Below, in pieces: positions 96-23,576 of a stretch of 64,000 bases of DNA. Positions within the stretch are counted from its first letter, which is position 1, and every line of letters starts with the position of its first letter. Below the pieces are notes generated by a model, which saw nothing but the letters and a program-made list of their open reading frames with translations, was not told the origin of the DNA and did not search any database. The position numbers and the translations under genes are program-made. This DNA is from Halobaculum roseum (lineage in GTDB: Archaea > Halobacteriota > Halobacteria > Halobacteriales > Haloferacaceae), in NCBI RefSeq assembly GCF_019880245.1, contig NZ_CP082288.1, forward strand, positions 62,001-126,000, written 5' to 3'.

Positions 96-1733
96 ATGAC
101 CGAATCCTGCGAGATCTGTTTTACCGCACCGGCGGACTGGGAGGAGGATAGCATCGAGGAACACGTTCTGAACGCCCACGGCGACGCGCAGCCGTCGGTG
201 CGAGCCATCTACGGCGACCGGTTCGCTCACCTGTTCGAGGAGGGTACGGGCGAGGACGGCGACGGAGCCGGCGGAGCGGACGCCCCCGACGCCCCCGCCG
301 GCGGCGACGCCCCGACGGATCTGGGCGGCGCCGAGGACCTGGGGCCGGTGTCGATGGACGACGACGGCGAGATGTACGGCCGCAAGTGGTTCCTCATCGG
401 GATCGGCGGCGCCGGCAACAACATCGTCGACGCCGTGTTGATGCGTCGCGACACCCTCGCGCGCAACCACGAGGACCGCGCCCGCATCTGGCAGGGCGGG
501 CTCGCGGGCTACGGCCTGCTCAACACCAACATCGCGGAGTTGGAGCAGACCTACTACACGAAGGAGCTGAAGGAGTACTCCCGCAACGACCTGCTGTCGA
601 ACTCGATCATCGGGTTCGGCAAGCACGGCTACAGCGGGATGGGGTACCGCTGGAGCAACGGCGCGAAGGTGGCGGCGGCCGACTTCGCCGACGGGAGCAA
701 TCCCTTCCGCGACCGCTGGGACATGACGAGCCAGGACATCCGCGACGCGCAGGCGGTGATGCTCGTCCACAGCGTCACGAAGGGGACCGGCTGCGGGGCG
801 ACGCCGGTCATCGCCGAGAAGCTCCGCGAGGAGGTCCAGGAGTCGGGACTCGTAATCGACCAGGCGATCCTCAGCTCCGTCGTCATCCCCTCGGAGGGCG
901 GCCAGCAGTCGGCCGTCGGCGGCCGCGCGAAGACGAACGGCGTGATCGGCCTGTCGCGAATCTCGCGGTCGGCCGACGCGATCATCCCGTTCAACAACGA
1001 CCACCTGCGCCGTGCGAGCACCGACATCGAGCCGCGTATCGAGGGGATCGACCAGTACAACCCGCCGGAGTTCGCGGACCTCAACAAGCCGCTGGTGGCG
1101 TTCCTGGAGGCGTTCACGATGTCGTCGACGCCGCAACTCACCGACCGCGACGCGACGATGAGCATCCGCGGGAGCGTCTTCGACGTGGCCGACAGCTTCC
1201 GGCTGGTCGAGGACAAGTATCCGCACGACATGGCGCCCGAGGAGCGCCCGGCGGTCGTGCTCGCGCCGGCGCTGGGCCGGCTTCGATCGGACGACATCTC
1301 GCGGTCGAGCCTCGAACTGCTCGCGCGCAACACGCTGTTGCAGAACCGGCTCGCCGACTTCGACCCCTCGACGGCGTGGGGCGGCAACTTCATGATCTAC
1401 GGGCCGGAGGAGCAGATGTCGGACGTCTCCGAGTTCGTAACCGACGGGACGCTCCAGGAGATCCTCAACGGCGACGAGTTCCTCGACGCCGGCTCGCGTT
1501 CTGGCGTCGAGACCGTCGACGTGCAGCTGAACCAGCTCGTCATCCCGTACCTCGACGACGTGTTCATGTGGGGGACTCTGTGGAACCCACGGATGCCGTC
1601 GCTGGAGTCGATGTACGAGCACGCCAAGCGCCTGAAGGACGAGGGCCAGAGCGTGCAGGCGGAGGACATCCGCGACGTGTGGAACGAGGTGCAGCCGTTA
1701 TTCGACTGCCTCGGCCGGTCCAACATGCTGTGA
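96..1733 (+). CDS. Tubulin/FtsZ-superfamily GTPase with N-terminal C2H2-type zinc finger
   Basis: The protein has 545 residues. Residues 5-28 form a CxxC-x14-H-x4-H pattern, which looks like a C2H2 zinc finger. A Gly/Asp-rich linker (about 50-95) follows, then a tubulin/FtsZ core. In the core GIGGAGNN (102-109) matches the first glycine-rich nucleotide loop of FtsZ, LLNTN (141-145) matches the FtsZ LNTD segment, and KGTGCGATP (229-237) stands where the GGGTGTG signature is expected. A later segment, GLSRISRSADAIIPFNNDHL, resembles the FtsZ stretch that ends in an Asn/Asp base-contacting motif. The family normally binds GTP and polymerises. The signature loop has lost its first glycine, so hydrolysis may differ. 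It is the first complete gene of the plus-strand operon. The fold call is firm; the role (scaffold, motor or sensor) is unknown. Confidence 0.8.
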   Translation: MTESCEICFTAPADWEEDSIEEHVLNAHGDAQPSVRAIYGDRFAHLFEEGTGEDGDGAGGADAPDAPAGGDAPTDLGGAEDLGPVSMDDDGEMYGRKWFLIGIGGAGNNIVDAVLMRRDTLARNHEDRARIWQGGLAGYGLLNTNIAELEQTYYTKELKEYSRNDLLSNSIIGFGKHGYSGMGYRWSNGAKVAAADFADGSNPFRDRWDMTSQDIRDAQAVMLVHSVTKGTGCGATPVIAEKLREEVQESGLVIDQAILSSVVIPSEGGQQSAVGGRAKTNGVIGLSRISRSADAIIPFNNDHLRRASTDIEPRIEGIDQYNPPEFADLNKPLVAFLEAFTMSSTPQLTDRDATMSIRGSVFDVADSFRLVEDKYPHDMAPEERPAVVLAPALGRLRSDDISRSSLELLARNTLLQNRLADFDPSTAWGGNFMIYGPEEQMSDVSEFVTDGTLQEILNGDEFLDAGSRSGVETVDVQLNQLVIPYLDDVFMWGTLWNPRMPSLESMYEHAKRLKDEGQSVQAEDIRDVWNEVQPLFDCLGRSNML

Positions 1734-1736
1734 CCC

Positions 1737-3269
1737 ATGTCGGGACCACCAATCGCGGCCGTGTTCATGGGCCTGTTCGGCGGCTCGGAGGAACCCGACA
1801 TCGAGGCGATCGCGGATCGCCTCGGCTCGCGGCCGACCGAGGGCGACGTAAAGCGGACGCTCGGCGAACTCGAGGAGTCGCTTGACCGGCTCGCTGCGGC
1901 CGCCGACATCGCCGGCCCCGACGGCCGCGTCGAGAACGACGCTCCGCCCGCCGACAAGGCGCGCGAACTCGCGACGCTGGTCGAGCGTGGACGCCTCAGC
2001 ATCGATCGGCCCGTCTCGGGAGGGCAGGGCGGGGGCGGCTCAGAGGGCGACGGCGTCGTTGCGACCGTCGCCGACGACGTGTCCCGATCAAAGCGACCGA
2101 GCGGCCACCGCGCCGCGTCGCTGCTCGACGCGCTCGCGACCCCGTCGGCGACGGGGGAGGGAGCGGTCCGCGAGGCGCTCTCGGACGCGGTCGACCGGCT
2201 CGAGGCGGCCGACGACATCGATCGGGCGATCGAACTCGAGGACCCCGAGCGGACCGCGGGCCGACTGACTGGCGTCGACGACGACCTCGCGGCGGGCGTG
2301 GCCCGGATGGCCGAGGCCGCCAGCGACAGCGGCGGCGACGCGGCGGCGACGGAGGCCGAGGACGCGCGCGTCGTCGTCGATCGCGCGCTCGGGCGGATCG
2401 ACGGCCCACAGCCGCGGCGGGACGCGACGCTGGCCGAGCGGGTCGAACTCCTCGCCGAGGCCGCCGAGGACGCGGACTCGGGTTCCGCCGCCGATGGCGC
2501 GCCGGGTTCGGAAGCGGCGCGGCGGGTCCGCGCGAACAACCGCGCCGAGTGCGAGCCGGCACGGGACCTGCTCGACGGCGTCGCCAGCGACGACCCCGAG
2601 GAGGTTGCCGACGCGCTTCGCGAGGGCGTCGACGCGCTTAACGAGGCCGCGACCGTCCGGAACCTCACCGCCGACGTCGATGCCGACGACGTCGCCGCCC
2701 GGGTTCGGTCGCTCGGGGAGACGGTGTCCGGGATCGACGGCCCCGTCGCGGACGCCATCGGCGACCGCGTCGACCGCCTGGACGCGATGCTGGAGCGCGC
2801 CGACGCGAGCAACGCCGTCGTCCCGTACGCGGTCCGCGAGGAGGTCGCCTTCTACGAGCGCGACCTGCTCCCGTTGCTCGAATCGGGGACGGCCGGGGGC
2901 GCGGCCGACACGGACGTGACGGCCGCCGACGGTTCCGTGGCCGGAGGTGCGGTTGGTGGGGATGCGACGGGCGACGACGCCGGCACGGCCGTCGGCGATG
3001 CCGGCGCGGCGGTCGACGCGCTCGACGAGCGCAGACGGGAGATCCGGTCCCGCTACGTCGACTCGCGAACCGACCACAACCACAGCATCCCGATGTTCTT
3101 CCTGTCGTTGACGGAGACGATGGAGGAGCGCGCACGCGAGGCGCTCTCGGCCGGAGAGGAAGGGCGCGCTCAGGGGATCGCCTCGGCGGCCGACGACTTG
3201 CTCGACCGAGTCGAGGCACTGTACGAACGCAACGAGTACAGCGTGATGCTTAGACGGCTCCGCGGGTGA
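1737..3269 (+). CDS. Acidic, Ala/Asp-rich helical protein of the tubulin-like operon
   Basis: The protein has 510 residues and no family I recognise. It begins 3 bases after the zinc-finger tubulin gene, so it is probably co-transcribed and coupled. The sequence is dominated by Ala, Asp, Glu, Arg and Val in helix-like blocks, for example around DRLAAAADIAG and ADALREGVDALNEAA. A low-complexity Gly/Ala/Asp stretch lies at about 385-425, followed by a less acidic C-terminal part containing HNHSIPMFFLSLTETMEE. There is no signal peptide or membrane segment, so it should be cytoplasmic. An alternative ATG exists at 1767. It may be an adaptor for the upstream tubulin homologue, but that rests only on position. 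Confidence 0.6.
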   Translation: MSGPPIAAVFMGLFGGSEEPDIEAIADRLGSRPTEGDVKRTLGELEESLDRLAAAADIAGPDGRVENDAPPADKARELATLVERGRLSIDRPVSGGQGGGGSEGDGVVATVADDVSRSKRPSGHRAASLLDALATPSATGEGAVREALSDAVDRLEAADDIDRAIELEDPERTAGRLTGVDDDLAAGVARMAEAASDSGGDAAATEAEDARVVVDRALGRIDGPQPRRDATLAERVELLAEAAEDADSGSAADGAPGSEAARRVRANNRAECEPARDLLDGVASDDPEEVADALREGVDALNEAATVRNLTADVDADDVAARVRSLGETVSGIDGPVADAIGDRVDRLDAMLERADASNAVVPYAVREEVAFYERDLLPLLESGTAGGAADTDVTAADGSVAGGAVGGDATGDDAGTAVGDAGAAVDALDERRREIRSRYVDSRTDHNHSIPMFFLSLTETMEERAREALSAGEEGRAQGIASAADDLLDRVEALYERNEYSVMLRRLRG

Positions 3270-3350: not shown

Positions 3351-4514
3351 ATGCCATATCTCTTTGTCGGCGCCGGTCAGGCGGGGTGTTCGCTGGTGGA
3401 TGCGGTGTTCGACCACCAGCGTGTCGCCCAGCTGGCCACGCCAGTCGCGTTCAACTCGACGATACGGGACCTCCAAAACCTCTCGAACATCGAACGTGAG
3501 GCGTGGTACGGGGTCTCCGAGGGGAGTGGGCTCGTACCCGGCACTACGGCGGGGTTCGAGGAAGAAGTGACCGGCGGGTTCGGCCGGGACCCGGAGAAGG
3601 CCGACGCCGCGCTCGCGGGACAGCAGCCACAGTTAGTCGACGCCTACGAGGAGCGGTTCGGCGACGGCACGCCGCCGTTCGCGTTCCTGTTCCTCGGGCT
3701 GGGCGGCGGCACCGGGTGCGGGATCGCGCCGCACCTCGCGGAGGCGATCCGCGAGTACGGCGGCTCGTCGACGGACATCATCGCCGTCGCGGTGCTGCCG
3801 AACACGGCGGGAACGGTGACCGGCGACGACGGTCCCAGTGCCACCCGCCAGGCGACGAACGCGATCTACGGGCTCGACCGCCTGGAGGAGCACGTCGACG
3901 GGGTGATCCTCGTCGACAACCAGCGGCTCGCGTACGAGGACGCCGCGGAGGGGCGGTTCAAAGAGTACAACGACTACGCCGCCTCGGCGATCGTCGACCT
4001 CATTTCCGGCCCGATCCTCGAACGGATCAACCCCGGGGAGTACGACGACCTCGACGCGCCCGTGATCGACCTGCAGGACGTTGTCACGTCGCTCACGCTC
4101 GACGACGGGGGCGTCGGCTACGCGACGCTCGGGCGGTCGGTCACGATGACGCGTTCGCTTCCCGGCTATCTGCTTCCGTTCGTCGGGCGCAAGTCGGTCG
4201 ACGGGGCGACGCTCTCGCGACTGGCCGTCTCGAAACGCAGCGTCGAGGACGTGAACCCGACGGACGCGGTCAAGGCGATCGGACAAGTTCGCGCGCCAGC
4301 GCCGTACCTCGTCGACGACGACTACCGGATCCAGGTGTCGGTGATCCGTGGGCTGCTCGACTCCTACTGCCCGGAGGTCAACATCGGGATGACGTTGACG
4401 AAGCGGAACCTCGCGTCGTTCACGACGCTGTTGACGTTCGCGCGCGAGGACATCTCACGGCTGGCCGAGATCGAGGACCTCGCGGCCGAGCACGCTGCGG
4501 GGGTGACGCCGTGA
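3351..4514 (+). CDS. Tubulin/FtsZ-superfamily GTPase (CetZ-like N-terminus)
   Basis: The protein has 387 residues, close to FtsZ/CetZ length. GAGQAGC (7-13) resembles the GxGQAG loop of CetZ and the GQxG loop of tubulin. GLGGGTGCG (116-124) is a canonical GGGTG-type signature, and AFNSTIRDL (33-41) replaces the FtsZ LNTD region. VLPNTAG followed by a helix and VDNQRLAYE matches the strand-helix-strand part of the GTPase fold that ends in the base-contacting Asn/Asp segment. The long acidic C-terminal tail of FtsZ is absent. It lies 81 bases after the acidic helical protein and overlaps the next gene by four bases. It is neither canonical FtsZ1/FtsZ2 nor an obvious CetZ. Confidence 0.82.
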   Translation: MPYLFVGAGQAGCSLVDAVFDHQRVAQLATPVAFNSTIRDLQNLSNIEREAWYGVSEGSGLVPGTTAGFEEEVTGGFGRDPEKADAALAGQQPQLVDAYEERFGDGTPPFAFLFLGLGGGTGCGIAPHLAEAIREYGGSSTDIIAVAVLPNTAGTVTGDDGPSATRQATNAIYGLDRLEEHVDGVILVDNQRLAYEDAAEGRFKEYNDYAASAIVDLISGPILERINPGEYDDLDAPVIDLQDVVTSLTLDDGGVGYATLGRSVTMTRSLPGYLLPFVGRKSVDGATLSRLAVSKRSVEDVNPTDAVKAIGQVRAPAPYLVDDDYRIQVSVIRGLLDSYCPEVNIGMTLTKRNLASFTTLLTFAREDISRLAEIEDLAAEHAAGVTP

Positions 4515-4798
4515 AGGGAGTCGACCGCACGCGCGGGGCGATGCTTCTGATCGCGGTCGGACTCGTCCTGCTGGGCGGCGTGCTCGCGACGACCGGGGTC
4601 GCACAGGAGTCCGCCGACGACAGCCAGCCGATTGGCGCGCTCACCGACGAGATCGCCGAGCAGTACGATGAGACGAACACGGCGGTCTCGATGGCGTCGT
4701 TCCCGCTCTCGCCGGCCCTGCTCGGCGGCGGCCTCGGCGTCGGGATCGGCGCGATCGGGGGTGCGGTGTTCGCCTATCAAAACCGGGGGATGCGCTGA
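4511..4798 (+). CDS. Small double-pass membrane protein of the tubulin-like operon
   Basis: The protein has 95 residues and starts with GTG at 4511, overlapping the stop of the preceding tubulin homologue (GTGA) with a GGGGTGA ribosome site just upstream. It has an N-terminal hydrophobic segment (about 10-31, LIAVGLVLLGGVLATTG), an acidic middle containing DEIAEQYDETNTAVS, and a second Gly-rich hydrophobic segment (about 70-90) ending in NRGMR. The coupling indicates equal expression with the tubulin-like protein. It could be a membrane anchor, but it has no recognisable family. Confidence 0.65.
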   Translation: MKGVDRTRGAMLLIAVGLVLLGGVLATTGVAQESADDSQPIGALTDEIAEQYDETNTAVSMASFPLSPALLGGGLGVGIGAIGGAVFAYQNRGMR

Positions 4799-4799
4799 G

Positions 4800-5843
4800 A
4801 TGCCGGGGACGCGATCCAGCGCCGCGCTCGTCGTAGCGGTCGTCACGATCGCGTTGGCGGTCGGTCCCGGCGTCGTCGCCGGCGCGGCGAACCCGGACGC
4901 CCCGTGTGCCGGCATCGGCGACAACCAGCTCGTCGCGTACTACGACACCGACGAGCGCGTCGGCGACGCGACCGTCTATCCGGGGACGACGCTGACGCTG
5001 TACGTCTGCTCGGGCGACGAACCGGAGCCGTACGACGCGGCGTGGGGATTCGACGCGGACGCGGCACAGGGGATCGAGTCGGTGACCGAGCGTGATTCCA
5101 GCGTCGTCGTCACGGTCGCCGCCGGCGTCGACGGTATCGACCCCGCGAGCGCGGTGACACAGAAGTCCGACCTCTCCGGCCCGACGATCGGCGTCCAGAA
5201 CGGGTACACGACCACGACGACTGTCGACGGCGAGTCGGTAACCCTCCAGTTCGAATCTCAGTCGGACCTTGATGCGTACCGGAACGCGAACGAGGCGTTC
5301 GAGACGAGGCGCTCCGAGGCGACGAACGCCTCCGAGACGCTCGCGGCGGCGGCCGAGAACGGGAGCGCGCTCGACACCGACCCGGCGGAGGAGTTGGGGA
5401 CCGTCGAGGAGGCCAACCTGACGACCGCCGGGCAGCAGCTCGAACGGGCGACGTTCGCCGCCGCCGAGGCGGGAGACGCCGAGGACGCGCGGACGGTGAT
5501 CGACGCCGTCGGGACGAAGCGTTCGGCCACCCAAGCGACGACGCGCGAGAACCTGAACGCGTATCTCGGCGCCCTCGAACGGCGCGGCGGGAACGCGGCG
5601 ATGACCGTTCGGCTCGTTCTCGGCGGCGCGCTGCTGGGCGGTCTCATCGTCGGTGGGGGGGTCGGCTACCTCCTCGCCCGTCGAACGCTGAAGAAGATCG
5701 AGATCGACCGCGGCGTCTCGACGGCGACGCAGTACAGCCCGAAGCAGATCGCAGTGCCGCTGGCCATCGGCGTCGTCGCGCTCGCCGTCGCGGCGGTCGG
5801 CGCTGTCCTCGGCGGCGGCGACCTCCTGGCGGTGATTCTATGA
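4800..5843 (+). CDS. Secreted-domain membrane protein with two C-terminal transmembrane segments
   Basis: The protein has 347 residues. An N-terminal signal sequence (about 1-26, ending VVAGAANP) leads into an exported region of about 240 residues with two cysteines (CAGIG, YVCSG), a beta-rich first part and a helical Ala/Glu-rich second part containing several NxS/T sites. Two hydrophobic segments follow (about 268-293 and 315-347). A short cytoplasmic loop between them contains LARRTLKKIEIDRG. The start at 4800 is one base after the previous stop. Its topology puts most of the chain outside the cell. No family recognised. Confidence 0.65.
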   Translation: MPGTRSSAALVVAVVTIALAVGPGVVAGAANPDAPCAGIGDNQLVAYYDTDERVGDATVYPGTTLTLYVCSGDEPEPYDAAWGFDADAAQGIESVTERDSSVVVTVAAGVDGIDPASAVTQKSDLSGPTIGVQNGYTTTTTVDGESVTLQFESQSDLDAYRNANEAFETRRSEATNASETLAAAAENGSALDTDPAEELGTVEEANLTTAGQQLERATFAAAEAGDAEDARTVIDAVGTKRSATQATTRENLNAYLGALERRGGNAAMTVRLVLGGALLGGLIVGGGVGYLLARRTLKKIEIDRGVSTATQYSPKQIAVPLAIGVVALAVAAVGAVLGGGDLLAVIL

Positions 5844-7924
5844 AGAGACAGTACAAGGCAGCACTCGGAATCGGTGGAATCGTTCTCGCGACCGCGCTCG
5901 TGGGCCTGCTCTCGTTCCTCTATTTCGGCTCACAGATCGGCGTGTACGTCATCGGCGTGGGCGCGCCCCTCGCCGTCGTGGCGTCGATCGGCCTGTACGT
6001 TCGCGGCGTACTCACGCGTGACAACACGAGTCAGGGCGACTTCGTGCAGGAAGCCGCCCGCTCGGCCGCGGAGGCGTTCCGCGACGAACTGACGACGTAC
6101 AACCGACTCAAGGCCGAACACGACCGGTGGGACCCCGGCGAACTCGAGACGCGGGCACGCCAGATCGCCGACGACTTCGGGGACGCCGGCGTCTCCGTCG
6201 ACGTCGCCGCGGCGACGATCTCGGTCGATTCGCCCGGCCGCGTGCAGGAGTTCGACAAGCTGCAGGCGGACGTGAGCGCGTTCGCCGACGACCGCGACGA
6301 GTCGTTCGCGGCGTTCGGGCGCTCACAGATCGAACACGCCCGGCAGGGCGCGCGCTCGGTCGACGAGTCCGTGCTCGACGGCGACGGCGTGCCGGTCTCG
6401 ACGGTGCCGGACGACGTTCCGGACGGCGCCGCCCCCGAGGAGACCGAGCGGGTCCTCTCGAAGGCGCGCGAGGAGGCCGCCGACGTGTTCGAGGACGCGG
6501 TCGACCGCATCGAATCGACCGTCGACGAGTACGACGGCGACGCCGCGCGGATCGAGTCCCATCTCGAAACTGCGCGCGCAGCCATCGACGACGCCGACTG
6601 GGACGCCGCCAGCGCCGCCATCGACGACGCCCAGGGCGACGCCGAGTCGGAGGTGAGCGCGGCGTTCACCGCCGACCGCGACAGCATCGACAAGCTCCTC
6701 TCGACGATCGACTCCGTCGACGTCGACCGCTACGCGGCCGACGACGACCTGCGGACGTTCGATGAGGCGCGCGAGACGCTCTCGGGCATCGACTCGGCGC
6801 TCGCGAGCGACGAGTTGGACGCCGTCGGCGAGGACGTCCGCCGGGCGGCGACGAGCGTCGTGGCGACCCTCGAGACGGAACTGGAGACGAACGTCGAGGT
6901 GATCAGGGACGCGGACGTGCCGGTCGGCTTCTACACGGCGCCGCCGGCGGTGGCGACCGACTACGAGGCGCGGCTCCGCGAGGCCGACGGCCTCGACGCG
7001 TTCCGCGAGGAGTGGCTCGCGGCGGCCGCCGACCTGACGGAGGCGGTCGACGCGGCCGAGTCGAAGGCCTCCGTGGCCGACTCCTACGGCATGGTCGAAG
7101 AGCGGATCGCCGACGGGGTTCGGACGGAGGGACGCGTAACCGGCGACGATCTGCCGGTCCGTGACGCGACGCCGTTCCTCGAGTTGTACGCCGAGGCGAA
7201 CGACGGCGTCGAGTTCGACTCGTCGGTGCCCGCGATCGCCGCCGAGGGCGGCGGCGAGTCGTACGACGTGACCGCCACCGCGCAGTTGGCGACCTCGACC
7301 GGGGAGGAGCACGATCTGACGATCGAACTCTCCGGCGACGGCGTCTCCGAGCGCGAGACGGCGAGCACGTTCGTCGCCACGGAGGCGACGTTCGACGAGG
7401 TCCCCTACGGCGAGTACACGGTGAGCGCGAGCACGCCGACAGAGAGCTTCGCCGACGCGGAAGCGACGCTGCAGGTCTCAGACAACGAGTCCGTCGAACT
7501 CGTGCTCGAGGAGATCGGACTCCGCGAGCGCGTCTGCGGCGACGACACCGATGACGTGCGGAGCCAGCTCCCGACGGTGGCGCCCAAGTTGGAGGAGGGA
7601 TTCGCCGCCGACGAGTACCTCACGCCCGACTCGGACATTCCCGTCGCGGCGGAGTACGTCCCCTGTCTCCTCGTTCTGTGGGCCGAGGAGGAAGGACACG
7701 AGGCGACGCTCGATGACGGGCGCGTTCTCGTGTACGACCACGACCAGTTCCGGTCGCGACTGGACACGATCACGACCCACAACCTGAGTGACGGCGAAAC
7801 GATGACATACGACGAAATGCGGCGGAAGTTCCTCTCGGTACCGGCCTCCGACGACCTCATTCGCACGACGCTGCGCGAGCTCGACGCCGACGTCGCCGCC
7901 GACGAGACGGGGGTGAGCGCCTGA
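5840..7924 (+). CDS. Membrane-anchored coiled-coil protein with a cytoplasmic beta-sandwich domain
   Basis: The protein has 694 residues. Two closely spaced hydrophobic segments (about 7-29 and 33-56) form a hairpin anchor. The rest appears cytoplasmic: long acidic helices from about 65 to 440 with Ala/Asp/Glu-rich repeats, then a Thr/Val-rich beta domain (about 470-560, including LTIELSGDGVSERETAS and YGEYTVSAS) resembling PEGA or carboxypeptidase-regulatory Ig-like folds. A last alpha/beta region contains CLLVLWAEEEGHEA. ATG at 5840 overlaps the previous stop (ATGA) and a GGCGGTGAT site precedes it. Its TGA overlaps the next tubulin gene. It is a good candidate to tether tubulin-like polymers to the membrane. 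Confidence 0.65.
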   Translation: MKRQYKAALGIGGIVLATALVGLLSFLYFGSQIGVYVIGVGAPLAVVASIGLYVRGVLTRDNTSQGDFVQEAARSAAEAFRDELTTYNRLKAEHDRWDPGELETRARQIADDFGDAGVSVDVAAATISVDSPGRVQEFDKLQADVSAFADDRDESFAAFGRSQIEHARQGARSVDESVLDGDGVPVSTVPDDVPDGAAPEETERVLSKAREEAADVFEDAVDRIESTVDEYDGDAARIESHLETARAAIDDADWDAASAAIDDAQGDAESEVSAAFTADRDSIDKLLSTIDSVDVDRYAADDDLRTFDEARETLSGIDSALASDELDAVGEDVRRAATSVVATLETELETNVEVIRDADVPVGFYTAPPAVATDYEARLREADGLDAFREEWLAAAADLTEAVDAAESKASVADSYGMVEERIADGVRTEGRVTGDDLPVRDATPFLELYAEANDGVEFDSSVPAIAAEGGGESYDVTATAQLATSTGEEHDLTIELSGDGVSERETASTFVATEATFDEVPYGEYTVSASTPTESFADAEATLQVSDNESVELVLEEIGLRERVCGDDTDDVRSQLPTVAPKLEEGFAADEYLTPDSDIPVAAEYVPCLLVLWAEEEGHEATLDDGRVLVYDHDQFRSRLDTITTHNLSDGETMTYDEMRRKFLSVPASDDLIRTTLRELDADVAADETGVSA

Positions 7925-9123: not shown

Positions 9124-9128
9124 CCGAG

Positions 9129-15738: not shown

Positions 15739-15976
15739 GGAACTCCCGGCTGTCCCGTCTCAGCCGACACAAGAGCCCGAATGCCGACGGGGCCGTCACT
15801 GTTCTGTCGGTGAATTTCGTTTCGCTGGGTCCGGTCCGTACGCACTCTTAGAGTCGACCAACGGTATCTGGTACAGGAGACGACCACAGATGCCACACAC
15901 AGGAGTCGGATGAAAACTGGCCCGAGCGCGTTGACCGCGGTCGGTTTCGGCTGCTACTCGGTTGCGCCCCCGTGGA

Positions 15977-18900
15977 TCACTCGTACTGCGTCGAGAGTCG
16001 GGACGGCAATCGGGAGTCGTCCGTCTCGACGTCGAGGGTCCAGTCGTCGGACGCGACGGCCGCCTCCTCGTCGGCGACCGCCGAGACGGTCGCGCGAGTG
16101 GCGGCCTCGCCGGCGGAGATCTCGGCGTCGACGACGACCTCGTCGCCCGATTCGACGCCCTCGAGATCGACTAGGTAGCGGATCGACGACTCCGGATCGA
16201 TCGTCTCGCCGTCGTCGCCGTCGGCGTACATCGCCTTCTCGACGTGCGGCCCGTCCGCGTCGATCGAGACGCCGCCGACCGGCCGCGATCCGTCGTTCGT
16301 GACCGAGAGGAACACCGACCCGAAGCCGCGCTCGACGCGCGAGTCGGGCTCGACCTCGACGGTCAGGTCGTCCACGCGGTCGCCGTCCCCGGCCACGACC
16401 GAATCGTGAACGACGAGGGTGTTGACCTGCTGGACCTCGCCGTTCGTCGATCGGCCGTCGGTCCGGCGGGCACGAACGAACGCCTTCGCAACGTCGTCGC
16501 GGAGCGTGTACGGCGTGGCGACCGTGGCATGTGCCGGCGAATCGGGAGTCACCTCCGCGTCGATCTGCTCCGACGGCTCGCCGCCGACGACGGCCTCCTC
16601 GACCTCCCACGTTCCCTCGTCGCTCTCGACGGTCACCGAGAGCTCGCCGCCGTCGCCGCCGGCGGACTGCCCCCATGCGATCACCGCGACCAGCCCGCCG
16701 TCATCGACCGCGAGTTCGGTCGCGGGAACCGACGTGGTTCGTCCCTCGTGTTCGAGTTCGACTCGCGGGAGCGACAGCGTGGACTCCAGCGGCACGTGGT
16801 ATCGGGTGCCGACCGCCCGCCCGTTCGCGCGGACCTTCAGTCGCTGGGCGTAGGCACCGTCGTCCGTTCGAAGCTCGAACTCGACGGGTTCGGCCGACTC
16901 GTTCGACACCACCAACCGCTCCTCGAACACGACGCCCCGCCTGGGGTCCGCCGACGGGAACTGCCGGTCCATGGAGACGGGGACGGATCCGCCGCCGCGA
17001 TCCGACCGCGGACCGGCGGCCGTCCCGGTCGACGATCCGGACACGCCCCGATCGGTGCTGCCGCCGCCAGCTCGGTTCGCGACGCCTCCGCCGGTGTCGT
17101 CCTGAAGCAGCGAACACCGGTTCAGCGAGAGCCGTTCGGAGACGCGCCCGCCGCTCGTTTCGACCGTCACGGAGCGCTCGCCGGAGGAGGCGACCGGGAG
17201 CGCGAGCCGATAGGCGCCGTTCGCTGGGATCGACACCGGCATCGAGAACGAGCCGTTCCCGTCGGGAACGCCGTCGATCGTGACCTCGTCGTCGACGGCG
17301 ACGGGCGTGTCGTTGTGCAGCGTCACCGAGAGGAAGCCGTCGGACTCGGCTTCGATCTCGATCCCCGTCGGCGTCGCGGGAACGCTCGTCTCGGCCTCCA
17401 GGGGGTCGACGCCGTCCGCCCGAACACGAACCGCGCCGCTGGGGAGGTCCTGCTCGAACGGAACTCGCTCGGACTCCCCCGGATCGAGCGTCCCGACCGG
17501 CGTTTCGCCGACGGTCACGCCCGTCACGCTCGTTTCCCCGTCGTTCTCCACGTCGATCGCCGCCGACAGCACGCCGTCCTCGACGCCGTGGAGGACCGAT
17601 TCGACGTGGAGCGCGGTGGTCTCCTCCTGGACCTCGAGGGTCTTCTCGGTCGACGCCTCGCCGACGGCGGCGGCGACCGTCACCTCGTCGGCCGACAGCG
17701 CCTGCAGCGAGACGCGCCGACGCTGGGTCGCGCCGGCGTCGATCGTGGCGGACACGGTCGAGGAGGCGACGTCGGCGCCCTCGGCCTCGACGGTCGCGTC
17801 GACCTCGACGGCGCGGTCGCCCTCGTTCGTGAACGCGAGCACGACGGTCGGGTCGGCTGGCCGAAGCGACTCCGACTCGACGCGGACGCCGACCGACTCG
17901 TCGGCCCGTCCGACCGCCGCGTACACCGTCGCAGTCCCGCTTCCGACCGTACACACGAGGTCCAGCGACGGGGTCGCCGCGATCGGCGTGCCGCTGACCC
18001 CGTCCATCGGGTGACGGTTGCCGTCGGCGTCGACCGCGAAGTCGCTGCCGGCGACGCGGGCCGCCAGCCCGGCGACGCCGGCGTCCGCCAGCCAGGAGAC
18101 GTCGCCGTCGATCCCCCACAGTTGCTCGTCACCCTCGTAGCCGACGAGTTGGCCGTCCTTCAGGGAGACGACCGCACGCCCGGGAAGCAGCCCGACGTCC
18201 GTGACTGCGCCCGACAGCGTCTGCTCGTCGAGCTGATCGCCCGAGGAATCGAGCACCGTCAGGAACGACCACGAGGCGACCGCGAGCCTGCCGTCCGCGG
18301 CCGCGACCGCCGGCGACTCGGCGACCTCGGCATGTGGTTGGTCGAACCGGCCCGCCTCGATGCCGGTCCGGCCTTCGATGACGACGAACTCGCCGTCGCC
18401 GGTTCTGACGTATACCCGATCGGCATCGGGGTCGGCGTCGACCGACCGGCCGTCCGCGATGTCGACGCCCCACACTCGGCTCCCCGCGTGCGAGAACGCC
18501 TCGAGTTCCGTGTCGCCGAGTGCGTACACCCTGTCCGCGACGGCGACGTCGACCACGTCGTCCCTGCGGGCGACCCGGCGACGGTCGCCCGACGTGATGA
18601 GCGAGATCCGGCCGTCGGCGGTCGCGACCGCGATGGCGCCGGAGCCGGCGTCGGCGGCCGCGACCTCCGGCATGTCGAAGGCGTCCACCTGCACGTACCG
18701 TTCGGGGACCTCAGCCTCGTCGGCATCCGGGCCGAACTCGTCGTCGGCGTCGTCCGACGCATCATCGGAGTCAGGCGGTGTCGTCGTTTCCGTCGCTTCC
18801 GCCGGGTCGGCCGGTTCCGCCGTCGTCGCTTCGCTCGCTGTTTCCGCCGTTGCCGCCGCTTCCGACTCGTCGACGGCTGCCTCGTTCGTCGGCTCGTCCC

Positions 18901-18991
18901 GGCCGTCGTCCGGTCGGTCGCCCCACTCGTCGGAGTCAGGGTCCGCCGAGGCGTCGTCCCACTCCTCCGGGTTCGAGCCGGCGTCGTCCAC
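15977..18991 (-). CDS. Cytoplasmic beta-propeller and Ig-like repeat protein
   Basis: The protein has 1004 residues. The start is GTG at 18991, two bases after the AAA ATPase stop. The first ~100 residues are an acidic Ala/Glu/Asp/Thr linker. Residues about 105-370 contain short repeats of beta-propeller type (VYALGDTELEAFSHAGSRVW, VYVRTGDGEFVVIEG, AVVSLKDGQLVGYEG) like PQQ/WD-type propellers. After that come several CARDB-like beta-sandwich units (VVLAFTNEGDRAVEVD, DVENDGETSVTGVTVG, LSVTNDGSRPVGGVS). No signal peptide or membrane segment is visible, so Ig-like repeats that are usually extracellular appear to be inside the cell. It is likely a scaffold or adaptor, last in the minus operon. 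Confidence 0.65.
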   Translation of the reverse strand: MDDAGSNPEEWDDASADPDSDEWGDRPDDGRDEPTNEAAVDESEAAATAETASEATTAEPADPAEATETTTPPDSDDASDDADDEFGPDADEAEVPERYVQVDAFDMPEVAAADAGSGAIAVATADGRISLITSGDRRRVARRDDVVDVAVADRVYALGDTELEAFSHAGSRVWGVDIADGRSVDADPDADRVYVRTGDGEFVVIEGRTGIEAGRFDQPHAEVAESPAVAAADGRLAVASWSFLTVLDSSGDQLDEQTLSGAVTDVGLLPGRAVVSLKDGQLVGYEGDEQLWGIDGDVSWLADAGVAGLAARVAGSDFAVDADGNRHPMDGVSGTPIAATPSLDLVCTVGSGTATVYAAVGRADESVGVRVESESLRPADPTVVLAFTNEGDRAVEVDATVEAEGADVASSTVSATIDAGATQRRRVSLQALSADEVTVAAAVGEASTEKTLEVQEETTALHVESVLHGVEDGVLSAAIDVENDGETSVTGVTVGETPVGTLDPGESERVPFEQDLPSGAVRVRADGVDPLEAETSVPATPTGIEIEAESDGFLSVTLHNDTPVAVDDEVTIDGVPDGNGSFSMPVSIPANGAYRLALPVASSGERSVTVETSGGRVSERLSLNRCSLLQDDTGGGVANRAGGGSTDRGVSGSSTGTAAGPRSDRGGGSVPVSMDRQFPSADPRRGVVFEERLVVSNESAEPVEFELRTDDGAYAQRLKVRANGRAVGTRYHVPLESTLSLPRVELEHEGRTTSVPATELAVDDGGLVAVIAWGQSAGGDGGELSVTVESDEGTWEVEEAVVGGEPSEQIDAEVTPDSPAHATVATPYTLRDDVAKAFVRARRTDGRSTNGEVQQVNTLVVHDSVVAGDGDRVDDLTVEVEPDSRVERGFGSVFLSVTNDGSRPVGGVSIDADGPHVEKAMYADGDDGETIDPESSIRYLVDLEGVESGDEVVVDAEISAGEAATRATVSAVADEEAAVASDDWTLDVETDDSRLPSRLSTQYE

Positions 18992-18993
18992 GG

Positions 18994-20640
18994 CTACTCG
19001 GCCCCCGTGTCCTCACCCGGCTCGTCCGGGCCGTCGTCCGCGGGGGCTCCGCCGTCGGGCGTCGCGGCCGCGTTCGCGTCCGCGCTCGCGGCGTTCTCCT
19101 CACGGATCTGCTTGGCCTGCTCCTCGAGGTAGCGCTTCATTTCCGGGTACCCCTCAAGTTCCGAGGCCTGCTTCATCGTCGATGAGACGTACTGGCGAAC
19201 CGTCTTGGGCTCCGACTCCTCCAGCTTCTCCAGGAGGTACTGCTTGTCGGGTGTGATCGCGTCGCCGTCGATGACGCTCTCGATGAGTTCGCGCTGCAGC
19301 TCCGAGCCGAGCACGCGGTCGGCGATTTCGGCGGGAGTGTACCCGACCGACGCCTCCCCCAGCTCCTCGAGCGCCTCCTCGTCGAGGTCCTCGCCGATGC
19401 GTCCCAGCGACGTGCGCCACACCTCCGACATCACGTCGGCGTCGGGTTGCGGGATGAACTGCTGGATCGGGAACCGTCGGGTCGCCGCCGGGTCGATGCT
19501 GAAGGGCATGTTCGTCGCGCCGATCACCAGCAGGTTGTCCTCCACGTCGTTCATCTCCTGGAGGAACGCGTTCGTCAGCGCGCGCTCGTGGCGCTGGAGG
19601 TTGTCGTCCGACCGGTCGGGGATGAGCGTCTCCACCTCGTCGAAGAAGAGGACGGCGAACCCGTCGCCGGCGGCTTCGTGGGCCTGCTCGAAGGCCGCGC
19701 GGACGTTCTTCTCGGACTCGCCGGAGTACTTCGAGACCACGTCGCTGCCGCGAACCTCGAGGAAGACGACCTCGCCGTAGCTGTCCTCGATGTCGGTGTT
19801 GTGCTTCGCCTCGTAGGCGATCGCCTCCGAGACGAGCGTCTTCCCGCAGCCGGGCGGCCCGTACAGCATCATGCCGCCGCCGCGGTCGGCGAACTCCTCG
19901 CCGTAACGCTCGACGACCTCGTCGCGCACGTCCGGCTCGAACAGCGACAGCATCATCTCCGCCGTCTGCTTCACCTCCTCCAGTCCCGCGACGTCCTCCT
20001 CGAAGCTCGTCGTCGGGTTCTTCGGGGTGATGTCGATGTTGGCCTCCTCCTCGTCGGCCTGCCCGCCGGCACCGCCTCTACCGCCGCCGGCCGACCCGTC
20101 GCCCCCTCCGCCCGCGCCGGCGTCGGCCCCGGCCGGCGGGCCCGTGCTCGCGGGCGGTTCGTCGAGGAACTCGAATTCGGTGTCGTCGTCGACCCGGAGG
20201 GTCGTCCCCCGCGGCTCCAGTTCGTCGACGACGAACTCGACACGCTCGCCGCCGATGTCGGCCACCTCGTGGATGGGATGCAATAGGAACTGACGCTCGG
20301 CGAGCGCCGAGGCCAGCGCCTCCTCGTTGACCCCTTCGGCGTAGATGCTCGCGCGCTTGCAGGTCCGGACCGACCCGAGCGACACGTCGGTGTCGACGTA
20401 GAAGTCGTTCGTTCGGTTGATGCCGCCGAACAGCGTCGCGACGTTGCTGTTCAGGTAGACCTTGTTCTTGATCGTGCTCGCGAAGCCGTCGTCCTCGGTG
20501 TCGACGCGAAAGAACGCCTCCCGGCCCGCGTGCCGGACGCGGGCGATCTCGGCGCTCGGCCCCACCTTGCTCTCTCCCACGGTGACGTGGGACGTCGGCT
20601 GCTCCTCCTTCGTGATCGGCGTGAGATTGACACTCGTCAT
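18994..20640 (-). CDS. Cdc48/VAT-type AAA ATPase with one AAA module
   Basis: The protein has 548 residues. Residues about 1-160 resemble a Cdc48 N-domain (beta-rich, with KVYLNSNVATLFGG and a clam-like second half). A Gly/Asp-rich linker (about 165-200) leads to one AAA module: Walker A GPPGCGKT (261-268), Walker B LFFDEVE (331-337), sensor-1 Asn in GATNMP (377) and arginines in ATRRF (388-389). Cdc48/VAT have two modules; this has one, as in Vps4, katanin and many archaeal single-ring unfoldases. The start is placed at ATG 20640 because it overlaps the preceding gene (ATGA); the frame also runs open upstream. Such ATPases remodel protein complexes; here the substrate may be a tubulin-like polymer or coiled-coil partner. 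Confidence 0.8.
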   Translation of the reverse strand: MTSVNLTPITKEEQPTSHVTVGESKVGPSAEIARVRHAGREAFFRVDTEDDGFASTIKNKVYLNSNVATLFGGINRTNDFYVDTDVSLGSVRTCKRASIYAEGVNEEALASALAERQFLLHPIHEVADIGGERVEFVVDELEPRGTTLRVDDDTEFEFLDEPPASTGPPAGADAGAGGGGDGSAGGGRGGAGGQADEEEANIDITPKNPTTSFEEDVAGLEEVKQTAEMMLSLFEPDVRDEVVERYGEEFADRGGGMMLYGPPGCGKTLVSEAIAYEAKHNTDIEDSYGEVVFLEVRGSDVVSKYSGESEKNVRAAFEQAHEAAGDGFAVLFFDEVETLIPDRSDDNLQRHERALTNAFLQEMNDVEDNLLVIGATNMPFSIDPAATRRFPIQQFIPQPDADVMSEVWRTSLGRIGEDLDEEALEELGEASVGYTPAEIADRVLGSELQRELIESVIDGDAITPDKQYLLEKLEESEPKTVRQYVSSTMKQASELEGYPEMKRYLEEQAKQIREENAASADANAAATPDGGAPADDGPDEPGEDTGAE

Positions 20641-21281
20641 GTGACTGGGTTGTAGGCGTTCATCGTTCGGGTCACGTATTCGCGAACCCGCCTGTCCTCG
20701 GCGTCGACCAACCCGTCCGGCGGGTTGACCCACAGTGTCCGCGTGGCAACGTTTCGAACCGTCGTCCCGGTGTCACGAAGCGCGCCAGCGACGTCGTATA
20801 GCGCGGCCGCGGAGTCGTCGCGGTCGTACAGTTCCATCCGGCCGGCGCCGCGCTCGACCATGCCGGCGGCGCGGTCGAGTCGGTCGGCAACGACCGGAAC
20901 CAGCACGAACCAGTTCGCGACCGGCGCGCCGGCAGTCGCGAGCGGGACCGTCGGCGACCCGGACTCGACGACCGTGATCCGATCCGCGTCGCGGGCCGTC
21001 TCGACGGCGTCCGTCGGCGGTTCCTCGCCGTCGATGGCCGCCGTGATCACTCGCTCGACCGCCTCCGCGATCCGCCCGTCGTCAGTCGTCGCCGGGACCG
21101 GGAGGGGGTATGCATCGGCCAGCACCGTCCCGATCCCGCGCAGCGACGCGTCGAACGACGCGATCGCCGCCCAGACCCGCCGTGGTTCGGGCGGCTCCGT
21201 CCACGAGAGGATCCGGTCGCACGTGTGCTCGACGGCGGCGACGCGGTCGACCCACGGGTCGACGGTGGACGGGCGGGACAC
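20637..21281 (-). CDS. Unknown 214-residue protein coupled to the AAA ATPase
   Basis: The start is GTG at 21281 with a GGAGGT site five to six bases upstream. The stop overlaps the AAA ATPase start (ATGA), so the two are translated together. The protein is soluble, mixed alpha/beta, with no recognised motif. Features include a Pro-rich helical start (ILSWTEPPEPRRVWAAI), a central segment with VANWFVLVPVVADRLDRAAGM, and RTLWVNPPDGLV near the end. It is plausibly an adaptor of the ATPase. Confidence 0.55.
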   Translation of the reverse strand: MSRPSTVDPWVDRVAAVEHTCDRILSWTEPPEPRRVWAAIASFDASLRGIGTVLADAYPLPVPATTDDGRIAEAVERVITAAIDGEEPPTDAVETARDADRITVVESGSPTVPLATAGAPVANWFVLVPVVADRLDRAAGMVERGAGRMELYDRDDSAAALYDVAGALRDTGTTVRNVATRTLWVNPPDGLVDAEDRRVREYVTRTMNAYNPVT

Positions 21282-21371: not shown

Positions 21372-22406
21372 TCACGATTCCGTGATCGGTCCCGTCTCGG
21401 TTTCTTCTTGGGCGATCGCCTGGGAGGACTCGTTCAACTCGGCCATCTCCTCGGAGTTGCCGCGGAGGCCGTCGAGGACGCTCTGTGCGTCCTCCTCCTC
21501 CATCCGCTGTTGCTTGGGGACGACGTTGCCCATCGCCGACAGCACGTTCGTGAACTGCTCGGAGGCGGCGACCGCCTCCGTCGGCCACAGCTGTTGGGTC
21601 CGGATGCGGTCGCGCAGGCGCTCCTGCTCGATCGAGAACTGGTCCTTGGTCGATTCGAGCTGGTTGATGATCTCCCCGAGGTCCATCTGATCGGGGTTCG
21701 GGTTCGGGATCGTCTCTCCTTGCTTCTCCTCCTGCTCGACGAGGTTGTCGTAGTGGTAGTACTGCTCGCGGGCGTGGTCGAACTTTCGCCGTTCCTCCTC
21801 GTCGAGGTCGTCGATATCGCGGTCGCCGGCGATCGAGAGCATCTCCTGTTTGTACTCCTCGCGCTTCTCGCGGAGGTTCTGGAGGTGCTCGGTCACGTCG
21901 GTCGTCTCCTCGGCCCGGGAGGTGAGCCGCTCTTGGGCCTCCTCGACCCGGCTGACCGCCGTCTCGATCCGCTCGGTGAGCGTGTCGAACGCCGCCGCCC
22001 AGTTGCTGTACATCTTCACCGCGCGGTCCATTTCGTCCTCGTCGTAGGTGTGAGGCGGCCGCAGCACGGTCACCGTCGACTGCTCGATCGTGACGATGTC
22101 GTTGTGGCCGAGGTAGTCGATGATAGCGCGCGCGGAGTCCTCGCTGCGGGCGTGTTCGCTCTCCGCGAGCGTTTGTGCGGCGTCCTCGACGTCGATTACT
22201 GCGTTGCCGTCCTGGTCGATGGAGAGCTCCTCGCCGCCGAGGACCTCCTCCATGAGGTGTGCGAGCAGCTCCTCCCAGTTCCCGCTGTCCTCGTCGGACC
22301 ACTCGGCGAAGCCGTGCTCGAACCGCACCGCCGAATCGGTCTGGCTCTTCGGTCGTGCGACGACCGTCCCGGACTCCTCGTCTTCCTCGAAGCTAGTGTA
22401 TCGCAT
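21372..22406 (-). CDS. Coiled-coil protein with possible winged-helix N-terminus
   Basis: The protein has 344 residues. Residues about 35-120 look like a helix-rich, winged-helix-like domain ending in a short strand pair (DIVTIEQSTVTVLRPP). Residues about 130-270 form heptad-patterned charged helices (AAFDTLTERIETAVSRVEEA, HLQNLREKREEYKQEM). The tail is Glu/Ser/Gln-rich. No transmembrane segment. It lies 24 bases after the winged-helix gene in the minus operon. Its basic outline (helical, charged, coiled coil) is shared by ESCRT-III-like and myosin-tail-like proteins, but I see no diagnostic motif for either. Confidence 0.6.
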   Translation of the reverse strand: MRYTSFEEDEESGTVVARPKSQTDSAVRFEHGFAEWSDEDSGNWEELLAHLMEEVLGGEELSIDQDGNAVIDVEDAAQTLAESEHARSEDSARAIIDYLGHNDIVTIEQSTVTVLRPPHTYDEDEMDRAVKMYSNWAAAFDTLTERIETAVSRVEEAQERLTSRAEETTDVTEHLQNLREKREEYKQEMLSIAGDRDIDDLDEEERRKFDHAREQYYHYDNLVEQEEKQGETIPNPNPDQMDLGEIINQLESTKDQFSIEQERLRDRIRTQQLWPTEAVAASEQFTNVLSAMGNVVPKQQRMEEEDAQSVLDGLRGNSEEMAELNESSQAIAQEETETGPITES

Positions 22407-22430
22407 TGTAATTGGTAGGGGTGTGGGGGT

Positions 22431-23576
22431 TCAGAATCGCTCGTCGATCAGCTCCTCGCCGCGTTCGCGGACCTTCGTCCGTGCGTACGCGTTACCGGCG
22501 TCGCTCGTCGTGAGGTGGAGCTCCTCGATCTCCTCGCGGAGTTCCTGCTTGAGGTTGTCGGCCGTCGTCGCCGTCAGGTCCTGCAGCAGCGGTCGAGTGA
22601 GGTCCTCGGCCCGCCCCTCGACCATGCGGTCGAACGGCTCGACCGCCACGGCGAGGCTGCGCGCCTCGAGCACCTCGACGTGAGGGTCCCCGTCCTCGTC
22701 GTCGTACTGCTCCCGGACGGCCTCGATGACGTCCCGCTTGCCGATGTCGGCGCCGCTGGACCTGACGTGCGCGAGCACGTTCGACCGCACCTCGATCTCC
22801 GATTCGATCAGCGAGTCGTACTCGCCGGTCGGCATCACGTTGCCGGCGTCCTCGAACGCCCGGCTCACGTCGTCGCCGAGGTCGTCGGCGAGCTTCTCGG
22901 CGAACTCATCCAGCGCGCTTCGGACGAGGTACTCGCCGTCCATGTCGATGATGAGCCCTTCACCCTGGAGGTAGCCGATCACGTCCGAGGTTGCGGCCAC
23001 CGAGATGGCCTCCTCCAATTGGCCGTGTGAGAGCTTGCCGTGGGTCGCGCGCCGCTTGAGCTTCCCTTTGAGGTCGTCCTCGCCGGTCTCCTCCTTCAGG
23101 CGCGAACCGACGGAGTAGTAGTCCCGGCTCCCCGCGGCGATACGCATCACGAGGTTCTGTCGCCGCAGTTGCTTGGCGAAGAAGTCCGCGTCCTCGTGGG
23201 CCAGATCGAACGCCTTCCGGAGGTCCTCCGTCGTGACGACCATTTGATCCCGGAAGACGCCCTTGAGACGCTCGGTGATCCCCGTTCGCGTGCCGCTGCC
23301 GAACGGGTCCCAGTAGAACACCCCCGACCGGATCCGTTCGAGGCTGTAGTTCTCGTCCTCCGCCAGATCGCGAAGGGACTCCTTCACGTCGGATGTCGAC
23401 AGCTTCGGCGCCTTCAATCGGCCTTTCTCCCGACTCTGGTACTGGTCCTTCAGGTCGTCGCGGACGCGGTCGACGTACAGGAACCCGTAATTGGACTGTG
23501 AGATGTCCTGTGAGATATCTTCCAGAACGTCGCGATCGACGGGACGAAGCGGCATTGACAGATATACCAGACTCAT
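22431..23576 (-). CDS. Tandem winged-helix protein, first gene of the minus operon
   Basis: The protein has 381 residues and appears built from several winged-helix-sized helical units: about 12-75 (DRVRDDLKDQY), 90-160 (VVTTEDLRKAFDLAHEDADFFAKQL), 175-225 (LSHGQLEEAISVAATSDVIGYL) and 255-300. A helical tail follows, about 320-381. Each unit ends with a short strand such as NLVMRIA or GLIIDMDGEYLV. It could bind DNA and regulate the operon, or act as a tandem winged-helix protein adaptor, as in ESCRT-II or UFL1. No family recognised. A second ATG at 23555 is a possible start because a TATA-like CTTAGTA lies about 27 bases upstream of it (23579-23585). Confidence 0.6.
   Translation of the reverse strand: MSLVYLSMPLRPVDRDVLEDISQDISQSNYGFLYVDRVRDDLKDQYQSREKGRLKAPKLSTSDVKESLRDLAEDENYSLERIRSGVFYWDPFGSGTRTGITERLKGVFRDQMVVTTEDLRKAFDLAHEDADFFAKQLRRQNLVMRIAAGSRDYYSVGSRLKEETGEDDLKGKLKRRATHGKLSHGQLEEAISVAATSDVIGYLQGEGLIIDMDGEYLVRSALDEFAEKLADDLGDDVSRAFEDAGNVMPTGEYDSLIESEIEVRSNVLAHVRSSGADIGKRDVIEAVREQYDDEDGDPHVEVLEARSLAVAVEPFDRMVEGRAEDLTRPLLQDLTATTADNLKQELREEIEELHLTTSDAGNAYARTKVRERGEELIDERF

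Follow-up and report, generated by a model that had tools for sequence, protein, structure and literature searches.

Tubulins and ESCRT (endosomal sorting complexes required for transport) proteins are both important to the origin of eukaryotic cells, and in archaea the two are mostly treated as separate systems. Here we describe a 16-gene locus of Halobaculum roseum in which three tubulin-superfamily GTPases and a series of membrane proteins face an operon with the gene order of a predicted haloarchaeal ESCRT system. The locus lies at the left edge of the window, i.e. the whole stretch of 64,000 nucleotides that was analysed, carried by a 337-kb haloarchaeal contig. On balance, the locus probably encodes one transferable machine, part tubulin-based and part ESCRT-like, for remodelling or budding of the cell envelope.

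The nearest described relative is Halo_adaptin, an ESCRT system predicted in haloarchaea (Makarova et al. 2024, mBio, PMC10936438). According to the text of that paper, a proximal winged-helix gene, a gene with winged-helix and coiled-coil regions and an ESCRT-III/PspA-like gene lie upstream of the ATPase gene; the ATPase is Vps4-like, lacks MIT and has a VAT/Cdc48-like N-domain. Two propeller-Ig (adaptin-like) proteins, two more Ig proteins, a membrane protein and a CetZ-like protein are also named, and vesicle formation is suggested for these loci. In the FtsZl1 systems a divergent tubulin-superfamily protein, thought to act outside cell division, has membrane partners (Makarova and Koonin 2010, PMC2875224); a typical FtsZl1 protein (1051 aa in the example given) carries a coiled coil and a helical tail and is accompanied by vWA, kinase and GTPase partners. 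Reported CetZ neighbourhoods include type IV pilus, cofactor (F420) and sugar-epimerase genes (PMC9856176). Tubulins occur as well in GTPase-centred conflict systems, alongside FNIII-type proteins and in mobile gene blocks (Kaur et al. 2020, PMC7159879). In the parts of the text available, two surveys of dark matter from the group behind PMC10936438 (PMC4158269, PMC6393860) make no mention of FtsZ or tubulin.

Gene content and likeness to Halo_adaptin

The unit consists of 11 plus-strand genes (z and a-j) and a facing minus-strand operon of five genes (o-n-m-l-k), listed here by window coordinates.

z, -1843 to 73 (L003:16157-18073), plus strand: membrane protein of 638 aa; only the final codons (1 to 73) are within the window
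a (tub1), 96-1733, plus strand: zinc-finger-like N-terminus, linker, tubulin-superfamily GTPase
b, 1767-3269, plus strand: low-complexity helical protein, conserved in its C-terminal region (coiled coil judged by eye)
c (tub2), 3351-4514, plus strand: tubulin-superfamily GTPase, GGGTGCG signature, DxxD at T7
d, 4511-4798, plus strand: small protein with two hydrophobic helices
e, 4800-5843, plus strand: signal peptide, ectodomain, two hydrophobic helices at the C-terminus
f, 5840-7924, plus strand: N-terminal membrane hairpin, long helices, CnaB/transthyretin-like beta domain, predicted C-terminal winged-helix region
g (tub3), 7924-9123, plus strand: tubulin-superfamily GTPase, SGEGGGR at T1, GGGTGNG at T4, DxxD at T7
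h, 9129-12002, plus strand: signal peptide, ectodomain, transmembrane helix at residues 453-471, CarboxypepD_reg-type beta domain, helical C-terminus
i, 12005-13006, plus strand: signal peptide, helical ectodomain, single C-terminal transmembrane helix
j, 13003-15738, plus strand: signal peptide, ectodomain with weak Ig-like (ASH/HYDIN-type) matches, single C-terminal transmembrane helix
k, 15977-18991, minus strand: PQQ/BamB-type beta-propeller and Ig-like domains ('adaptin-like'); no hydrophobic helix in the window copy
l, 18994-20640, minus strand: AAA ATPase with a single AAA domain; N-terminal region weakly similar to Cdc48 domain 2
m, 20637-21281, minus strand: 214 aa, fast evolving, in the ESCRT-III/PspA-like slot of the 2024 paper
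n, 21372-22406, minus strand: 344 aa, coiled coil
o, 22431-23576, minus strand: predicted tandem winged-helix units and a helical C-terminus; the minus operon starts with it

Of the ten plus-strand genes that lie fully inside the window, three encode tubulin-superfamily GTPases, six encode membrane proteins and one encodes a helical protein; the seventh membrane gene, z, is truncated at the edge and was overlooked in the initial annotation because the window begins inside it. The plus operon is tight. Its z stop codon lies 22 bases upstream of tub1 and most junctions are gaps or overlaps of 1-5 bases, the larger gaps being 81 bases upstream of c and 33 bases upstream of b, given the ATG start at 1767 that we favour over 1737.

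The minus operon has the gene order of Halo_adaptin, with domains largely alike, and both belong to Halobacteriales (PMC10936438). The ATPase l matches PF00004 (AAA) with E-value 6.1e-31 and is of Cdc48/Vps4 type by sequence comparison; its AAA motifs are conserved, with Walker A GPPGCGKT present in 36 of 36 orthologues. When 19 orthologues were searched, all matched PF00004 and six matched CDC48_2 (best 7.3e-5; the window copy, at 0.0038, is below cut-off), and no MIT family was seen among the 25 of 29 matched families listed. The single ATPase domain, the Cdc48-like N-terminal region and the absence of MIT from the listed matches are thus shared with the ATPase described in print.

An AlphaFold2 model of o (mean pLDDT 85.6, pTM 0.73) predicts tandem winged helices, four by our reading of the model. 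Its best Foldseek matches were UFL1 (E 3.4e-6, with a low TM-score), SelB and RPC62, and a second structure aligner placed ESCRT-II first (2zme_B, Z 9.8 over 139 residues, rmsd 6.2 A). The likeness to Halo_adaptin extends to these duplicated winged helices with ESCRT-II among the top structure matches; the published text lists duplicated winged-helix domains under the other arCOG number of its two winged-helix proteins, and which of these two corresponds to o is judged from gene order. A sequence match of o to glucose-6-phosphate dehydrogenase in the Protein Data Bank (PDB; 5e-4) was judged spurious, as the model shows winged helices.

Gene n occupies the winged-helix plus coiled-coil slot and gave mostly weak family matches of coiled-coil type. 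Gene m sits in the ESCRT-III slot of the published order, but a likeness to ESCRT-III was not detected in Pfam, where its 18 orthologues gave no convincing family match. For k, PQQ_2 was matched by 12 of 20 orthologues and CARDB by 7, and its profile matched BamB and designed propellers in PDB; searched as a single sequence, the window copy gave no PQQ_2 propeller match in Pfam, nor did h or j give a propeller match when searched in the same way. All four components that the initial annotation had seen here, the Cdc48-type AAA protein, the tandem winged-helix protein, the coiled-coil protein and the propeller protein, were recognized.

There are also differences from Halo_adaptin as its text presents it (PMC10936438). 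A tubulin gene is nearby in both, but the locus has three, none of them in the CetZ clade, in place of one CetZ-like gene; there are seven membrane proteins within a 16-gene unit instead of one; and k alone was recognized as a propeller protein where the text has two.

Two low-GC genomes (G014, G329), which we assign by GC content to Haloquadratum or a relative of it, each contain z-c together with e-o and a single strong l orthologue. Haloquadratum is the genus named for Halo_adaptin (PMC10936438), and because of these two genomes the published example is very probably this locus. The locus differs from Halo_adaptin as described in the published text; it would be a plain further member if the tables of that paper list these genes. 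The system had been called undescribed in the initial annotation. For the minus operon this does not stand, since the ESCRT-like half is already predicted in print, together with a link to a CetZ-like protein; most of the plus-strand genes are unnamed in the published text.

Co-inheritance, transfer and selection

We surveyed 391 Halobacteria genomes representing 86 genera. Tub1 was found in 40 genomes (18 genera) and o in 38, all with tub1; two genomes (G031 and G040) had tub1 without o, and none had o without tub1 (Fisher p = 8e-51, a statistic that ignores relatedness). Co-occurrence of the plus and minus operons, a test set beforehand for the initial annotation, was thus observed in 38 of the 38 genomes with o. 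A long match to f was present in 40 genomes, with short weak matches in five more. Partial f-like proteins were seen in three genomes that lack a long f match (L176:8312-11164 in G030, L186:7626-9893 in G070 and L187:7861-8898 in G076).

Gene order was compared in 43 loci, from 41 genomes and the plasmid records of Halobacterium salinarum R1 and Natrinema SYSU A 869 (G091 is outside this set). In 34 loci z-c and e-o are together in one contiguous stretch, and the order is uniform across loci, except for neighbours with overlapping stop-to-stop frames. Of the other nine, two are interrupted where a contig ends (G185, G268), the minus operon is elsewhere in three (G020, G102, G131), m is unrecognized on the Natrinema plasmid, and three are reduced (G012, G031, G040). 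Contiguity in 34 of 43 loci, along with the purifying selection described below, shows that the locus is not a chance assembly.

In G020, G102 and G131, three genomes of one genus, an intact o-n-m-l-k is situated ~266 kb off, on another contig and 72 kb off, respectively. The association is therefore independent of adjacency: evolution has packaged a tubulin and ESCRT-like kit as one unit, retained in this genus despite the distance between the operons. Near the unlinked o-n-m-l-k, on the opposite strand, each of the three genomes has two CetZ-type genes (L177:3160-5481, L178:4271-6592, L179:4360-6747; CetZ profile E 6e-94 to 1e-140).

Named carriers include Halobaculum, Halorussus, Halopenitus, Halorubrum, Halobiforma, Natrinema, Natronomonas and Halobacterium salinarum R1. 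In the latter, a laboratory organism, the locus is on plasmid PHS2, so that deletion and tagging are feasible. The replicons are plasmids of 195-881 kb and also chromosome-sized contigs of ~3-4.5 Mb. One Halobaculum replicon (contig C2 of G003) carries two copies, near 14-35 kb and 408-437 kb; several genes of the first copy are annotated in pieces, from frameshifts or assembly error.

We clustered 394 proteins from the flanks. Among the top 14 clusters, no family beyond z and o was present in more than 7 of the 43 loci, and most clusters stayed within a genus or family. Three crossed families (a methyltransferase in five loci, a prenyltransferase-like protein in four and a histidine-kinase-like protein in four), and these look like common families. 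In all three tubulin trees G083, of family f1, is placed with G187 (family f7) and the Natrinema plasmid and away from the other f1 rows, which lie near the window's own tubulins; this suggests horizontal transfer of the locus.

A scan of genome contigs returned 35 loci. Sixteen of them (L020-L035) come from haloarchaea and match over nearly the full length; the remaining 19 are partial matches at 23-29% identity on Mycoplasma-type and Lokiarchaeal contigs. A phylum-wide draw of 294 genomes contained six carriers, all within the family or order of the window's own species. A viral origin was considered and set aside: among 55 pattern matches to tub1 in viral contigs there were no relatives, and PHROGs searches with 10 of the 16 proteins gave AAA families and weak matches to f and n.

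Purifying selection is evident from the ratio of non-synonymous to synonymous substitution rates (dN/dS), which was <1 for all genes tested in four species pairs (0.08-0.66; d was untestable in one pair). Constraint is strongest on the tubulins, l, n and o (0.08-0.26) and weaker on e, h and j (0.26-0.66).

Three tubulin families and their membrane partners

The initial annotation placed tubulin/FtsZ homologues at 96-1733, 3351-4514 and 7924-9123. These coordinates hold, and all three proteins match PF00091 (Pfam Tubulin) above cut-off (a, 1.7e-13; c, 4.8e-14; g, 2.1e-9). Profile-profile alignments to CetZ cover the GTPase and C-terminal domains (a 97-514, c 1-386, g 10-350), and CetZ outscored FtsZ1 and FtsZ2, the other two profiles compared, for each protein. 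In PDB searches the best relative of tub2 was 3zid (3.7e-11), and those of tub3 were 4b46 (3.5e-13) and 4b45 (3.9e-10); we take all three to be CetZ proteins, the database table labelling them FtsZ or tubulin/FtsZ. Tub1 is more remote (BtubA 3e-6, FtsZ 3.8e-6). Pfam, PDB and profile comparisons thus agree in pointing to a tubulin fold.

The GTPase signatures agree as well. Those of the T4 and T7 loops are conserved across the three families, and that of T1 nearly so. Tub2 has T4 GLGGGTGCGI and D240/D243 at T7 in 41 of 41 orthologues, and tub3 retains the glycine T4 loop and D228/D231 at T7 in 41 of 41. In tub1 the T4 loop is altered (VTKGTGCG in 40 of 42 orthologues) and there is a single glutamate in the T7 region, E338, in 42 of 42; each residue of its N-terminal CxxC...H....H (C5, C8, H23, H28) is kept in 41 of 42. 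By their T1/T4 glycine loops and acidic T7 residue, a, c and g are assigned to the tubulin/FtsZ superfamily.

In a tree of 71 rows (a 14, c 13, g 13, CetZ 16, FtsZ1 7, FtsZ2 7), a, c and g form one separate clade each, apart from CetZ, FtsZ1 and FtsZ2. All 16 CetZ rows are on one side of a branch with support 97/97, and a, c and g are not within the CetZ clade. By these comparisons, the locus has three tubulin families outside CetZ, FtsZ1 and FtsZ2. The deeper joins, a with g and c with an FtsZl1 row, were flagged as unsure long-branch meetings and were not used. Fold, length and GTPase signatures are shared with CetZ proteins as described (PMC9856176); the separate clades set a, c and g apart from them.

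Membership in the FtsZl1 family, as defined in the 2010 text (PMC2875224), is ruled out by size, architecture and partners, in agreement with the initial annotation. The tubulins have 387-545 aa and no long tail, PF13809 (Tubulin_2) is below cut-off for a and c with no match for g, and none of the 16 proteins has a vWA, protein-kinase or small-GTPase Pfam match.

Hydropathy of the window copies agrees with the topology given in the initial annotation for d, e, f, h, i and j: two hydrophobic stretches in d, a signal peptide and two stretches in e, a hairpin in f, and a signal peptide and one stretch each in h, i and j. There are five stretches in z, all N-terminal (1-5 among orthologues), the remainder being mostly helical; such orthologue counts vary partly since the starts were picked mechanically. 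We detected z in 42 of 43 loci and e in 41. Gene d evolves fast; its profile finds 20 loci, and several others hold a small two-helix frame at the same place.

The AlphaFold2 model of f (mean pLDDT 85.6, pTM 0.51) shows the hairpin with low confidence and predicts a CnaB/transthyretin-like beta domain at ~473-560, which dominates the structure matches, and a winged-helix region at ~569-694. ESCRT-II (2zme_B) also matched this C-terminus, but with Z 7.0 the match is too weak to be given weight. PDB searches with the profiles of f and n gave nothing useful.

Profile comparison within the locus suggests shared modules, with probabilities spanning 67-88: the C-terminus of b resembles that of h (67.5), the C-termini of i and j are alike, z resembles f in one segment, the beta domains of f and h are similar, and m is weakly similar to n (71).

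Candidate mechanism and competing explanations

In the envelope-remodelling machine that we favour, the tubulins a, c and g would probably form GTP-driven filaments at the cytoplasmic face of the membrane, anchored by the helical and membrane proteins z, b, d and f, with h, i, j and e providing links to ectodomains outside the membrane. On the facing operon, o would be an ESCRT-II-like tandem winged-helix component, n its coiled-coil partner and m a small protein acting in the ESCRT-III slot; l, the Cdc48/Vps4-like AAA protein, would pull the assembly apart, and the propeller-Ig protein k may select cargo. The outcome would be a local remodelling of the envelope, distinct from ordinary division and most plausibly serving to bud vesicles or to sort surface proteins. 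A membrane-shaping complex had already been proposed in the initial annotation. Its view of a single machine, in which GTPases of tubulin fold are combined with membrane anchors and an AAA protein of Cdc48 type, is retained, and the filaments and the shaping of the envelope are still what we infer; it named an AAA disassembler and a propeller scaffold but missed the ESCRT logic.

One could speculate further that the three tubulin families co-assemble as one heteromeric filament, that the membrane proteins tie it to surface receptors, and that l with ESCRT-II-like adaptors disassembles it and so buds the envelope. The two great ways in which eukaryotes shape membranes, with tubulin polymers and by ESCRT remodelling, would then be united in a single horizontally movable archaeal machine. 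We offer this fuller version tentatively, as a rather doubtful proposal.

Several observations weigh against a tubulin-plus-ESCRT-like machine. Winged-helix matches are common, and the ESCRT-II score of o (Z 9.8) is barely above that of a MarR-type winged helix; because the latter scores Z 9.1, the family assignment of the predicted winged helices is soft. A PspA/Snf7 Pfam match was found in 0 of 18 m orthologues at E<=1. The three unlinked genomes are of one genus and perhaps represent one event. The presence of tub1 in only 40 of 391 genomes implies an accessory function. Cytosolic b, k and m are also loose in dN/dS (0.19-0.48), which blurs any division between inside and outside; the values separate core from periphery more than cytosolic from external proteins. 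Reduced variants exist without l-o: z-a-b-k in G031 and G040 (with a frame resembling h next to it in G040), and c-k alone in G012 and G091. Finally, CetZ knockouts left the vesicle output of Haloferax volcanii unchanged in the published text (PMC10927574), and thus tubulin carried in vesicles need not make them.

Two of the reduced loci have unusual neighbours. In G031, z-a-b-k adjoins a 1144-aa FtsZl1-type tubulin (PF13809, 1.6e-11) and a multi-transmembrane protein (L182:5896-9330 and 9351-10826), which might link this system to the FtsZl1 system of 2010. In G040 (L184:1-6204), z-a-b-k is followed by a MoxR-type AAA protein, a 636-aa protein whose C-terminus is vWA/CobT-like by eye and without Pfam match, and a HEAT-repeat protein, an arrangement that recalls MoxR-vWA-propeller ternary systems.

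The main rival explanation is a tubulin-driven, envelope-spanning machine of force or shape that organizes surface proteins (in adhesion, cell shape, an appendage or cell contact), its winged-helix/AAA operon regulating filament turnover with no vesicles made. It would account for the seven membrane proteins and for the ectodomains of e, h, i and j, mostly faster evolving; CetZ, known for shape control, is the best profile match of all three tubulins, and the reduced variants retain one or two tubulins and k while dropping l-o. We nevertheless consider it unlikely, given that o was never seen without tub1 in 391 genomes, unlinked cases included, and that the order o-n-m-l-k agrees with the ESCRT system predicted in the text of PMC10936438.

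It is improbable that the locus consists of two separate systems, one a membrane operon with tubulins and the other an ESCRT operon of the Halo_adaptin kind, that happen to be neighbours and travel together. Either half is a tidy operon, and the reduced variants z-a-b-k or c-k could be taken as signs of separability; yet three genomes of one genus hold both halves unlinked, o without tub1 occurs in 0 of 391, and k is present in both kinds of reduced variant.

Slightly less credible still is a defence or conflict system, in which sensors and effectors assemble with NTP-driven multimers. Patchy spread and plasmid carriage fit such a role, as do the conflict systems described in the text of PMC7159879, in which tubulins occur with FNIII repeats and with vWA proteins, and the G040 neighbourhood, where z-a-b-k is followed by HEAT, MoxR-type AAA and the by-eye vWA-like 636-aa gene without Pfam match. 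The 16 proteins, however, have no match to a TRAFAC GTPase, vWA or HSP70 family, in which they differ from the systems of Kaur et al. as published in that text, and none to a nuclease, protease, NADase or other effector Pfam family. PADLOC, applied to 10 of the 16 locus proteins and not to the flanks, gave strong matches for the AAA domain only (IetA, TRIP13), taken as generic AAA similarity, and weak coiled-coil matches to n (JetC 0.00063, DruC 0.074); the lack of tub1 relatives in viral contigs also speaks against defence.

A role in plasmid partition as in TubZRC, where tubulins are the motors and winged-helix proteins the adaptors that bind DNA, is far-fetched: the locus is often on megaplasmids, o is predicted to have winged helices and TubZ and RepX are among the PDB relatives of tub2 and tub3, but the locus is also on chromosome-sized contigs (~3-4.5 Mb), four intergenic stretches of this genome contain only two-copy direct repeats and no iteron array, and seven membrane proteins have no place in such a system. 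Defence, plasmid partition and FtsZl1 membership all fit worse than a tubulin-plus-ESCRT-like machine.

Relative to the literature searched, in the parts of the texts available, the new elements are the three tubulin families in place of one CetZ-like protein, the 16-gene extent, the strict co-inheritance including unlinked cases, the modular nature of the reduced variants, in which k is retained, and the gradient of conservation. The published Halo_adaptin text (PMC10936438) is in this way extended from one tubulin to three and to a defined parts list.

Two minor features of the window were noted. An inverted repeat with 17-nt arms and zero spacer (15712-15745) lies across the end of j, between the converging operons. 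Further downstream, at 36001-40000, GC content falls to 0.50 and 0.41 against a background of ~0.69, which suggests an inserted foreign element.

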